This document shows positions 10,065 through 13,355 of a stretch of DNA of 21,791 bases, piece after piece. The stretch is taken from positions 1 to 21,791 of the IMG/VR virus record IMGVR_UViG_3300020433_000059; one strand, 5' to 3'. Position numbers and translations under genes: made by a program. Every line of letters begins with the position of its first letter. Position 1 is the first letter of the stretch. The notes below the pieces were generated by a model that was not told the DNA's origin, did not search any database, and saw only the letters and a list, made by a program, of their open reading frames with translations. The stretch is from a virus.

Positions 10065-11273
10065 TTAGAAAGCAGCAGTTGCACCAGATAATGTACCTGT
10101 ACCGGCTACTAATTCTACAGCAGCAGCAGGGTTAAGTGGAGCTACTCCCATTGCGAGTCTTCCTAAGATTACATCGCCTTGGTAAATAACTGACACGTCG
10201 CCAGATGTTACTTGAACTTGTGGTCCGATAGCTTCAACAAGACCTACAGCTTCTTTCTGGAATATTAATCCACAGCTGTTGGCAAACTTGCTAGCTTCAC
10301 CGTAGTCGTTTACGGTTCTTTGTCCTTCGTTAGCAGAAGCGTTAGCTGTAGGAACAGCGATTTCTTGCTGATCGCCTACACCTTCTGATACGAATGAACC
10401 TGTGTTTCCGGGGTCTGTTACACCGGGGTTTGTTGCAGATGCTGAACCATAAGCTGTACCGAACTTACCAAAGAATGGAATGTTCATTGACTTATAGATT
10501 CTGATACCTGCGATTTCGATGATGCCATTACCTGACTGTAATGCGTCACCTTGCTCATCTCTGTTGATTAGATAAGCACCTGAACCTGACCCACCTACAG
10601 CCTGAATTAGCTCGTAGTATTGTCTTGGGTTCAATACAGCAACTCTACCTTCGCCAGAAACACCCTTCTCGTCTAGTGCAGCAGCTGCATCGTAGAAAGC
10701 GTTTACAAGGAATGTAGCGTTGTATGCGTCAGAAGCTTGGTTGTTTGTACCAACTCTGATCTGTGTTCCACCGGGCTCTACAAAGTTAGTCTTTGTGATA
10801 GGTCCGGCTGATCTAGCTGACTTAGTGATAGCTCTGAAGATACGTCTGTCATAGTTCTCAGCTAGTGCATATCCGATCTTACGAGAAATTTCACCACGTA
10901 AGTCGTAATGTGCAAGTGTTTCATCTAATTCATAAACGAAAGCACTTGAGATTAAGAGGTCATCGCACTCGATTGTTACCTCTGCTACTGGAGGTGCACC
11001 ATCGGTGTTACCTAGTATGTTGTTACCGGGAATGTGGTACTCACTCTTTGTTCTACCTGTGAAGATGAACTGCATTGAGCGACCGTTCTTTAGGGTTCTC
11101 TTTGTGATTAGATCACGTGCAATAGTATTGCGTTGGAAGCCTTTGAACAATTCTCCGGAAAACAATTTTAAATAAAGGGCTCTTCTAGCTGCGGTAGTAG
11201 TAGAAGCTCCATTGTCAGCACCCGCAAAGGTTATATTAGAAGGGGATGCTGTGCTCTGTTGTGAAACAGCCAT
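10065..11273 (-). CDS. Major capsid protein (T7 gp10-like)
   Basis: 402 residues, close to T7 gp10A (HK97 fold). Features seen: an N-terminal Ala/Ser/Thr-rich arm, then 'Leu-Tyr-Leu-Lys-Leu-Phe-Ser-Gly-Glu-Leu' (about residues 33-42), 'Arg-Ser-Met-Gln-Phe-Ile-Phe' with a following Tyr-His-Ile-Pro-Gly, and a hydrophobic C-terminal region. These are characteristic of cyanopodovirus capsid proteins. It is preceded by a structured 160-base leader and followed by a strong terminator, which suggests separately set, high expression. No Shine-Dalgarno is evident just before ATG 11273 (the upstream bases are AT-rich). I see no sign of a gp10B-type frameshift extension. Confidence 0.95.
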   Translation of the reverse strand: MAVSQQSTASPSNITFAGADNGASTTTAARRALYLKLFSGELFKGFQRNTIARDLITKRTLKNGRSMQFIFTGRTKSEYHIPGNNILGNTDGAPPVAEVTIECDDLLISSAFVYELDETLAHYDLRGEISRKIGYALAENYDRRIFRAITKSARSAGPITKTNFVEPGGTQIRVGTNNQASDAYNATFLVNAFYDAAAALDEKGVSGEGRVAVLNPRQYYELIQAVGGSGSGAYLINRDEQGDALQSGNGIIEIAGIRIYKSMNIPFFGKFGTAYGSASATNPGVTDPGNTGSFVSEGVGDQQEIAVPTANASANEGQRTVNDYGEASKFANSCGLIFQKEAVGLVEAIGPQVQVTSGDVSVIYQGDVILGRLAMGVAPLNPAAAVELVAGTGTLSGATAAF

Positions 11274-11433
11274 TGTTTTCTATAAAGATAAAAGGTTGAT
11301 ATTGTTTTTGTACAAATTTTTTTCTCGAGATTTTTGTGTGTCTATCCACACCGTCTAGACGGCTAGTGGTATCCTCCTTAGAGGGCAAAAGCCAATAGCA
11401 GGGGAGTCCGACTCTGAGGTGCTCCCCGGCTGT
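11274..11433 (-). promoter_or_regulatory. Structured leader of the major capsid gene
   Basis: 160 bases without a convincing gene, between a small peptide gene and the capsid start. In transcript order it holds consecutive inverted repeats: GGGGAG/CTCCCC with a 15-nt loop (11401-11427), GGC-TTTT-GCC (11384-11393), CCTC-TAAG-GAGG (11373-11384), an extended hairpin around the palindrome CCGTCTAGACGG (11346-11369), and GTGTG-GATAGA-CACAC (11336-11351). The last two overlap and would compete. An AT-rich spacer then leads to the capsid ATG. A Shine-Dalgarno-like AAGGAGG (11374-11380) is buried in the third hairpin but has no good start codon after it. The stretch occupies the place of the T7 phi10 promoter and may hold a promoter, an RNA-processing site or a stabilising leader. 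Confidence 0.55.
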
Positions 11434-11568
11434 TTAGTAAGAAGGAGTCTCTAGTTGAGCATCTTCTTTCTTTTCTTCAGTTTTAGTTTCGTTCTTAGTT
11501 TCATCTAATGAATCTATGATTCTATAAGATGTTACATTAGCACGATTGTTTGAGCTTTGTTGTGCCAT
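11434..11568 (-). CDS. Small acidic/charged hypothetical peptide (44 aa)
   Basis: ATG at 11568 lies immediately after the TAA of the 17-residue peptide gene, with no gap, so the two are probably translated together. The product begins Met-Ala-Gln-Gln-Ser-Ser-Asn-Asn-Arg-Ala. After a short middle part (Val-Thr-Ser-Tyr-Arg-Ile-Ile-Asp-Ser-Leu) it becomes an almost uninterrupted Lys/Glu/Thr tail. It is hydrophilic with no membrane segment. It may be the second product of the putative glutamine-responsive leader. I do not recognise a family. The first hairpin of the capsid leader begins a few bases after its stop. It could be non-functional, but the tight coupling argues for a gene. Confidence 0.55.
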   Translation of the reverse strand: MAQQSSNNRANVTSYRIIDSLDETKNETKTEEKKEDAQLETPSY

Positions 11569-11622
11569 TTACTTAACAATTTTTGTATAAGCAATACCAC
11601 GATATACGTAAGTTACTGTCAT
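11569..11622 (-). CDS. 17-residue 'downstream peptide' (DUF4278-like)
   Basis: A very short gene encoding MTVTYVYRGIAYTKIVK. It starts at ATG 11622, 4 nt after a strong GGAGGG Shine-Dalgarno (11627-11632). The 'Thr-Tyr-x-Tyr-Arg-Gly-x-x-Tyr' pattern resembles, from memory, the small cyanobacterial and cyanophage proteins grouped as DUF4278. Peptides of this sort, often as short as 17 codons, are the genes found after the Downstream-peptide RNA motif. Such an RNA lies directly upstream here, with its pseudoknot strand just before the Shine-Dalgarno. The function of these peptides is not known to me. The start is set by the Shine-Dalgarno and by the position of the RNA element. Confidence 0.7.
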   Translation of the reverse strand: MTVTYVYRGIAYTKIVK

Positions 11623-11625
11623 AGT

Positions 11626-11690
11626 TCCCTCCGATACCTAGCCCCCGTTCCATGACTAGATTGCATGCGTCCTATATCAGGATGAACGGA
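11626..11690 (-). promoter_or_regulatory. Glutamine riboswitch-like RNA (Downstream-peptide motif)
   Basis: On the transcribed strand, CCGTTC (11684-11689) pairs with GAACGG (11645-11650) as an outer stem. Inside it are a short TCC/GGA hairpin (70-72 with 80-82), a GACGCATGC segment like the loop-E side of glnA RNAs, and a loop containing TCTAGTC (11654-11660). That loop can pair over 7 positions, two of them G-U, with GGCTAGG (11637-11643) just downstream to form a pseudoknot. The order stem, E-loop, loop, pseudoknot, Shine-Dalgarno, tiny ORF matches the Downstream-peptide family of glutamine aptamers described in marine cyanobacteria and their phages. The 5' strand of the outer stem lies inside the last codons of the upstream oxygenase gene. 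The pseudoknot ends 4 nt before GGAGGG, so ligand-dependent folding could control ribosome access. Confidence 0.8.
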
Positions 11691-12270
11691 CGTGACATAC
11701 ACTTTCATTCATACCAAACTCTTCGTCTGGGAATAAATTAAATGCTACTGATTTACGTGTAATATCAGATTTTTTAAATGGAGGATGATAATGATATAGG
11801 TAACTAGGAAAGAATATTATCTGTCCACGTGGTATTGGATGTGTACCTATATAGTCACTAAAGAACGGTCCGGGTTTATCAACTCTCATATCAAAACTCG
11901 ACAATCTGATAAGTGGGTTCTCTAGTATTAACGGAGCATGATCTGCTGAGTACGTAAAGGGGTATAGAACTCCTGAGTATATACAGTTAGCATGCCGGTG
12001 GCGGAGCATGGGTTTACCCTCTGGATTAGAGGTTAACCAAGATGTAGTGATTCGCCAGTCTTGGCGATAACCGTACACCTCTTCCGCAAAGTCTTCAAAA
12101 AGCTGTGTTATTGTTTCCTTAGCTACGACATAATCGTCTAAGAAATGAATGTTTTGAGCAGAATGTTCCTGTCGTACATCTGTATCTACGTCTTTAAAAT
12201 GATCGCAGATAGGGGTAGGCAAGAGAGCCTCGCCTACCGGTATTGAAAATGCAGGGATGGAATTAATCAT
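11677..12270 (-). CDS. 2-Oxoglutarate/Fe(II)-dependent oxygenase
   Basis: 197 residues, the size of phage and cyanobacterial 2OG-Fe(II) oxygenases of the 2OG-FeII_Oxy_5 / prolyl-4-hydroxylase-like type. The iron-binding part is seen in His91-Arg-His93 followed by Ser-Gly-Val (99-101). The second half has 'Gly-Gln-Ile-Ile-Phe-Phe-Pro-Ser' (149-156), His160/His162 and Arg172 in 'Arg-Lys-Ser-Val-Ala-Phe-Asn', the expected distal His and 2OG-binding Arg. Such enzymes hydroxylate a protein or small molecule using 2-oxoglutarate and O2; the substrate is unknown. The start overlaps the psbA stop by one base (TAATG). Its last codons form part of the putative riboswitch, so the protein end and the RNA structure are constrained together. 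Confidence 0.88.
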   Translation of the reverse strand: MINSIPAFSIPVGEALLPTPICDHFKDVDTDVRQEHSAQNIHFLDDYVVAKETITQLFEDFAEEVYGYRQDWRITTSWLTSNPEGKPMLRHRHANCIYSGVLYPFTYSADHAPLILENPLIRLSSFDMRVDKPGPFFSDYIGTHPIPRGQIIFFPSYLYHYHPPFKKSDITRKSVAFNLFPDEEFGMNESVCHVRSS

Positions 12271-13355
12271 TAACCTATTGATGGTGCTGATAGTGCCACT
12301 TGTGTTGACTCAGCTGATGCTAAATCAAGTGGGAAGTTGTGAGCATTACGCTCGTGCATAACCTCGAATCCAAGGTTAGCTCTGTTTACAACATCAGCCC
12401 ATGTTGGTACGATCTTGCCGTTAGCATCAACGATGGACTGGTTAAAGTTAAAGCCATTAAGGTTGAAAGCCATGGTGCAGATGCCCATTGAGGTGAGCCA
12501 TATGCCAACCACGGGCCAAGTAGCCAAAAAGAAATGTAGGCTACGAGAATTATTAAAAGAGGCATATTGGAAAATTAGTCTACCAAAGTAACCGTGTGCG
12601 GCTACAATGTTATATGTTTCCTCGTCTTGACCAAACTTGTAACCATAGTTCTGTGAAACGTCTTCCGTGGTCTCCCTAATGATTGAGGAAGTAACAAGGC
12701 TTCCGTGCATAGCACTAAACAAACTACCACCAAACACGCCCGCAACTCCGAGCATATGAAAGGGGTGCATAAGGATGTTGTGTTCCGCTTGGAAGACAAA
12801 CATGAAGTTGAATGTTCCACTGATACCTAGGGGCATGCCGTCAGAGAATGAACCCTGACCGAATGGGTAGACAAGAAAGACTGCAAGAGCTGCGGATAGC
12901 GGTGCTGTGTAAGCAACGAATATCCATGGTCTCATGCCAAGTCTGTATGATAGCTCCCATTGTCTACCTGCATAAGCTGCTACACCTATGAGGAAATGAA
13001 AGACAACGAGTTGATATGGTCCGCCGTTGTATAGCCACTCGTCCAAAGTGCCGGCTTCCCAAATCGGATAAAAGTGCAGTCCGATTGCATTGGAGCTTGG
13101 AACGACTGCTCCAGATATAATATTGTTTCCGTATAATAACGAGCCGGAAACAGGCTCACGTATGCCGTCAATGTCTACTGGCGGTGCAGCGATGAAGGCG
13201 AGTATAAAACAAGTTGTTGCTGTTAATAAGCAGGGTATCATCAAGACACCAAACCAACCTACGTATAGGCGGTTATCTGTGCTTGTAACCCACTGACAAA
13301 ATTTTTCCCAGTTGCTAGTAGTGCTGTTATCTCTTGTTACTGAGATAGCTGCCAT
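12270..13355 (-). CDS. psbA: Photosystem II reaction-centre protein D1
   Basis: 361 residues, full length. Numbering runs +2 against standard D1. Redox and ligand residues are all present: Tyr163 (TyrZ, 161), Asp172 (170), Glu191 (189), His192 (190), His200 (198), Ser266 (264), His334, Glu335, His339 and Asp344 for the Mn cluster. The C-terminal processing site after Ala346 (Ala344) is followed by a 15-residue tail ending in Ala-Pro-Ser-Ile-Gly. Position 132 is Gln (standard 130), as in low-light-type D1:1. The segment '[13 protein letters not shown]' is the usual variable loop. Phage D1 replaces light-damaged host D1 during infection. ATG 13355 shares a base with the hli stop; longer frames upstream only overlap hli. 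No intron or break is seen. Confidence 0.99.

Follow-up and report, generated by a model that had tools for sequence, protein, structure and literature searches.

Introduction

The closest described relatives of the locus analyzed here are the small genes that picocyanobacteria carry behind a type 2 glutamine (glutamine-II, or Downstream-peptide) riboswitch, and the pairing of this aptamer with a small open reading frame (ORF) in cyanobacteria is already known. Weinberg 2010 described the aptamer in cyanobacteria and marine metagenomes, followed by ORFs with synonymous substitution and products of typically 17 to 100 aa (PMC2864571); the metagenomic examples of that study may well have included phages. 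A Prochlorococcus copy binds L-glutamine and switches expression on (PMC6316151, PMC6698751), and a glutamine-II GFP fusion behaves as an ON switch, described as likely translational (PMC6698751; PMC6316151). According to a 2018 review, the type 2 glutamine riboswitch is seemingly restricted to marine picocyanobacteria, in which regulation of glutamine synthetase (GS) was called unclear (PMC6316151). Other marine phages (Melnitz, Mosig, T4-like cyanophages) also carry glutamine aptamers, and the literature mentions such riboswitches both for T4-like cyanophages and for pelagiphage relatives; the Melnitz riboswitch is glnA-like and lies at a tmRNA gene, and no YRG peptide was found reported with these phage aptamers (PMC9004378; PMC9964418).

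Here, we compare these systems with a locus in a 21,791-base viral record, referred to in its entirety as the window, whose genes are ordered as in a T7-like cyanophage and which derives from a virus that infects ocean cyanobacteria. As in the picocyanobacterial arrangement (RF01704; yfr6; PMM1846), an aptamer of the same family lies directly 5′ of a short ORF. Whereas the host products are chromosomally encoded, 33 to 78 residues long and mostly built of two to four YRG repeats, the phage peptides mostly comprise 13 to 38 aa with one repeat, and the phage pair occupies one fixed site ahead of the capsid gene, where a second gene frequently abuts the peptide gene. Our search of the open-access literature did not find a description of the fixed T7-like cyanophage element, of the reduction to a single repeat or of a second-gene slot.

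A 17-residue gene behind a glutamine-II aptamer

The gene under study lies on the minus strand at 11569..11622, where the letters ATGACAGTAACTTACGTATATCGTGGTATTGCTTATACAAAAATTGTTAAGTAA translate to MTVTYVYRGIAYTKIVK*. An ORF of 17 codons means nothing by itself, and we therefore tested the chance explanation on relatives. Codon differences among 38 distinct coding sequences of the short form were synonymous in 47.4% of cases, compared with 16.4 ± 6.6% after column permutation, and none of 500 permutations equaled the observed share. No in-frame stop occurred in any of the 38 sequences. The peptide frame has a pN/pS of 0.40 (codon bootstrap 0.21 to 0.67), and the remaining two frames, both stop-rich, have values of 1.4 and 1.8. 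The earlier note had proposed that this peptide is coding, and had named equally common synonymous and nonsynonymous changes among relatives as the pattern that would speak against it; the changes are not equally common, and the 17-residue peptide, with its coding constraint and fixed motif, is a real, unannotated gene. It is absent from the annotation of P-SSP7, whose copy reads MKVTFVYRGVAYTRVIG, and of most T7-like cyanophages examined, and P-SSP3, P-GSP1, NATL2A-133 and others that hold the same stretch likewise leave it unannotated.

The aptamer (11636..11691, minus strand) matches RF01704 with 55.9 bits (E 2.6e-11; gathering score 33) and ends 13 nt before the peptide ORF; 9 of 10 isolate or fosmid phage loci match the same family. 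The window contains CGTTC, GGAACGGG and CGCA, which correspond to the pseudoknot strands CGUUC/GAACG and to the CGCA strand. Because the loci were retrieved with both pseudoknot strands as the search pattern, conservation of those strands is not independent evidence. The CGCA strand is present in 166 of 167 distinct phage aptamers, P2 is formed by five to six pairs in 160 of the 167, and the full six pairs are found in 140 of these distinct sequences, distributed over 55 different stems. Between the aptamer and the ATG, four bases ahead of the latter, lies the Shine-Dalgarno sequence GGAGGG (11627..11632, minus strand) in the context ...GGTATCGGAGGGAACTATG, and TATCGGAGGRARCTATG is kept in near relatives. 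The claim that the peptide follows the aptamer with a strong Shine-Dalgarno thus stands for the window. A recognizable Shine-Dalgarno is absent in many long-form relatives. Long-form loci (L012, L017, L034, L079 and others) share a pyrimidine-rich GGTACTT..TC ahead of the ATG, hinting that they use a different initiation platform.

Folding of 90 phage leaders gave a mean unpaired Shine-Dalgarno of 0.38 in the free state and 0.31 with the pseudoknot, without a consistent change in accessibility. We had considered sequestration of the Shine-Dalgarno by the 5′ aptamer strand from a hand alignment of GUUCAUCCUGAUA with UAUCGGAGGGAAC in the window; this was dropped because the partner bases are lost in near relatives, which have TCGC P1 stems, and because partition-function folding of the 90 leaders predicted no release.

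A constant motif in a variable peptide

The viral sample was assembled from two IMG/VR scans with the aptamer as pattern together with phage records, and contains 190 complete peptide loci encoding 131 distinct peptides. In the first set, a YRG peptide is present at 125 of 129 aptamer loci; three of the exceptions end at a contig edge and one (L009) is frame-broken. The second scan relied on the aptamer alone, with neither start codon nor peptide used for selection, and recovered the peptide in 66 of 74 new loci. Four of the others end within 60 bases, and the last four are string matches without T7-like neighbors, which are probably not aptamers.

The pattern (L/Y/F)xYRG(V/I)xY is constant in all 131 distinct viral peptides, a count to be read with the fact that YRGxxY belonged to the selection rule and that the few loci without it are individually explained; in its extended form, the motif is (L/Y/F)-x-Y-R-G-(V/I)-x-Y-(T)-(K/R). 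Around it, nearly everything varies. Peptide length ranges from 13 to 60 aa, mostly 13 to 38 aa, with MVTYVYRGVVYTK as the shortest at 13. In the short class, YRG stands at residue 7 to 9, and in the long class it is preceded by a charged stretch of ~20 residues that is predicted to be helical. Overall, the YRG start position varies from residue 5 to 31 and the distance from YRG to the stop from 2 to 24 residues, so that a fixed motif is combined with a variable position and stop distance, as expected of a binding motif. The Arg and Gly codons also differ, with CGT in short forms and CGC in most long forms; because these codons change between classes, the constraint acts on the amino acids. 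A peptide that arrests the ribosome at its stop codon was rejected as a reading, given the variable distance from motif to stop.

Relation to host YRG proteins

When 84,980 prokaryote species were scanned with the aptamer pattern, at least 37 matches in picocyanobacteria had a YRG-repeat ORF downstream, and among the matches listed, those in unrelated bacteria had none. Six host genomes contain one to five aptamer matches apiece. The phage peptides are single-repeat with the sole exception of L280. That viral contig, which has no T7-like capsid match, encodes at 1321-1600 a 60-aa two-repeat YRG protein of host-like make-up with a Glutamine-II-like aptamer upstream.

The earlier note had likened the Tyr-Arg-Gly core to DUF4278 (PF14105) products, and for the core the comparison holds. 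The YRGxxY core is common to the phage peptide, to DUF4278 and to the N-terminus of the GS inactivating factor IF17. In a profile built from 33 host repeats, the score of the window peptide was reached by only 19 of 100,000 shuffles of its own sequence, and this match, together with the single repeat, makes the phage peptide resemble one host repeat. From these sequence comparisons, descent from one host repeat is very likely. Host peptides of 33 to 78 aa mostly pass the PF14105 cut-off, or nearly so. The long phage form, in contrast, aligns to the last (C-terminal) repeat of the profile with 21.6 bits (E 2.9e-4), under the cut-off of 25.3, and all but one of the distinct phage peptides have one repeat where PF14105 calls for two or more (~57 residues). 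The phage peptide is therefore half a domain or less and, by the Pfam cut-off, is not a full DUF4278 member. AlphaFold placed strand pairs around each YRG of a host protein with low confidence (pTM 0.22) and predicted helix and coil without strand pairs for the long phage form; we excluded these models from the evidence for a fold. A PDB search with the host DUF4278 profile returned no match.

The earlier note had also suggested GS regulators as a class to examine, on the ground that a glutamine riboswitch controls an inactivating factor of GS in cyanobacteria. The peptide would then be an inactivating factor of host GS, an idea that draws on the type 1 glutamine riboswitch controlling IF17 in Synechocystis, on the DUF4278 domain at the N-terminus of IF17 (PMC6316151) and on the fit of the YRG core to that domain. 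It is weak because the part of IF17 that the peptide resembles is the one reported as dispensable for inhibition, if stabilizing (PMC6316151). The peptide consists of one repeat and nothing more, and the part with which IF17 inhibits GS is missing from it. For picocyanobacteria, control of GS by IF-type factors has been described as unclear or as ruled out by earlier studies (PMC6316151). We consider GS a very unlikely target.

A second small gene and the possibility of a leader

The peptide had been presented as the output of the riboswitch, which as a sole output does not hold. A second small ORF, not mentioned in that first reading, occupies 11434..11568 on the minus strand, encodes 44 aa (MAQQSSNNRANVTSYRIIDSLDETKNETKTEEKKEDAQLETPSY) and begins with an ATG directly after the TAA of the peptide, with no gap. 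Nine relatives have a homologue of 41 to 43 aa that overlaps the peptide stop (TAATG), and the acidic gene is under purifying selection (pN/pS 0.44, bootstrap 0.32 to 0.58). A tblastn search of phage records with the 44-aa ORF gave no match. More broadly, the second slot is filled by an ORF of 30 aa or more in 49 of the 107 loci whose sequence extends far enough, compared with 0 to 10 for shifted slots of the same size; the start of this ORF falls within −5 to +15 relative to the stop of the peptide, in many cases in the form TAATG or ATGA. This stop-start overlap suggests translational coupling of the second gene to the peptide. The content of the slot falls into at least four kinds: an acidic protein of 41 to 44 aa ending EEKKEDAQLETPSY, which is the kind in the window, a Cys-rich protein of ~50 aa, a protein of 43 aa that contains a hydrophobic segment and one of ~118 aa that looks secreted. 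The ~118-aa genes lie directly behind the YRG peptide in L003 (3137-3493) and ~20 further loci (L023, L039, L064 and others), with a signal-peptide-like start (MKKLALALAASIASAPAMAGVYVN...); NATL2A-133 annotates its version as gp222. In L004, L031, L087 and L107, a Cys-rich end (FKRCGxCGDxKPxCRKQKKCLKxLL) follows an N-terminus like that of the acidic ORF in the window.

The abutting gene raises the question of whether translation of the short ORF matters rather than its product, with ribosomes brought to the second gene or the capsid transcript through coupling or mRNA protection. Bacterial attenuators have short leader peptides, and 13 to 17 aa is the size of known ones; the phage peptides resemble them in size, in their place behind a regulatory RNA and in the abutting second gene at some loci. 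The position of the second start in the 49 of 107 loci is also what such a cis-acting leader would predict. They differ from attenuator leaders in that the constraint falls on an internal amino acid motif, YRGxxY staying fixed while the Arg and Gly codons change, and in that the distance from motif to stop is variable, unlike in a stop-codon arrest peptide. Moreover, the second gene is missing from about half of the loci. Peptides at those loci have a pN/pS of 0.51 (bootstrap 0.26 to 0.80), compared with 0.37 where the gene is present; the intervals overlap, and the persistence of constraint argues against a pure leader role, with the reservation that the interval is wide. On this evidence, we regard a cis-acting leader as unlikely, though worth serious consideration.

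Proposed mechanism

We lean, if only slightly, toward a glutamine-activated translational riboswitch that drives a single-repeat DUF4278/YRG mini-peptide, which would act in trans on the partner of the host repeats. Binding of glutamine would close the aptamer pseudoknot and thereby raise translation of the 17-aa peptide, and the abutting 44-aa gene would probably be co-translated through stop-start coupling. The peptide would then be a stripped-down version of the host multi-repeat YRG proteins, themselves under the same riboswitch class, and may bind the same host partner as mimic or competitor while glutamine is high in infection. The ON direction and the likely translational mode are taken from the literature on glutamine-II. 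Aptamer homology, coding selection, motif constancy, the single phage repeat set against several in hosts, the fixed genome position and the conserved second ORF were computed or observed; the ligand response of the window copy, the coupling, the action in trans and the target are inferred.

The trans-acting reading is favored by the Rfam match, the coding tests, the constancy of the motif, the mostly two to four repeats in hosts, the profile match and a peptide constraint that is similar whether or not a second gene is there. In the two viral samples, all complete aptamer loci encode the peptide as well, apart from L009 and the four string matches. Counting against it are the lack of a Shine-Dalgarno release in the folding predictions, the many long forms without a Shine-Dalgarno and the low-confidence or absent AlphaFold strands; a single repeat of 13 to 17 aa may also be unstable in the cell. 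More tentatively, and with more doubt than belief, we speculate that T7-like cyanophages have pared a host nitrogen-signaling protein down to the smallest unit that is still active, a single YRG repeat of as few as 13 codons, and kept it under the host glutamine sensor at the capsid locus. There the peptide would act in trans on the host YRG system, as a decoy or an agonist, and an exchangeable second gene would obey the same glutamine signal. If true, an entire clade of viruses abundant in the ocean senses host glutamine at its capsid locus and responds with a trans-acting gene that ranks among the shortest conserved ones known. Comparing phage with host also narrows the question of what riboswitch-controlled DUF4278 proteins do in Prochlorococcus: evolution would have cut the family down to a single repeat, and a synthetic peptide of 13 to 17 residues could be used as bait for the partner.

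Genomic setting

Gene order in the window is polymerase, ribonucleotide reductase, connector, scaffold, hli, psbA, 2OG-Fe(II) oxygenase, capsid and tail, with names assigned from comparison to P-SSP7 or by eye except for that of the oxygenase. The fixed downstream neighbor of the aptamer-peptide pair is the major capsid protein, T7-like and a homologue of P-SSP7 gp10 (10065..11273, minus strand); the capsid gene lies 220 to 1470 nt downstream of the aptamer in nearly every relative with a contig long enough to include this region. The usual upstream neighbor is psbA, encoding photosystem II D1 (12270..13355, minus strand), and in many relatives the aptamer core begins 12 to 15 nt past the end of the psbA match. 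The window differs in that a 2OG-Fe(II) oxygenase ORF (11677..12270, minus strand; phrog_81, PHROGs E 2.8e-24) sits between psbA and the aptamer. The 3′ end of this ORF is shared with the first 15 bases of the aptamer (11677-11691, minus strand), and the pseudoknot strand CGTTCA therefore doubles as coding sequence there. An association of the riboswitch with psbA as its 3′ element was rejected as a general rule: phages without psbA at the site still keep aptamer and peptide, and psbA lies downstream of the element in two loci (L059 and L274). For these reasons we assign the element to the capsid locus and not to psbA.

These neighborhoods bear on the reading of the pair as a relic, a riboswitch and gene fragment taken from a host and left without function beside psbA. 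Phage psbA is itself host-derived, and hosts show the same arrangement of aptamer and peptide. The selection tests already contradict a relic, the peptide being under purifying selection (0 of 500 permutations) and the aptamer stems varying in sequence while staying paired. The pair is, moreover, retained where psbA is missing from the site and spans very divergent T7-like cyanophages. We give this reading almost no credence.

Ahead of the capsid gene, a conserved block at 11338-11386 (minus strand; GCCCTCTAAGGAGGATACCACTAGCCGTCTAGACGGTGTGGATAGACAC) contains the perfect 12-base palindrome CCGTCTAGACGG, a form that occurs only once within the window; 95 of 125 phage loci have a CCGTC-GACGG pair 3′ of the aptamer. 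The block may be an RNA element or a promoter of late genes.
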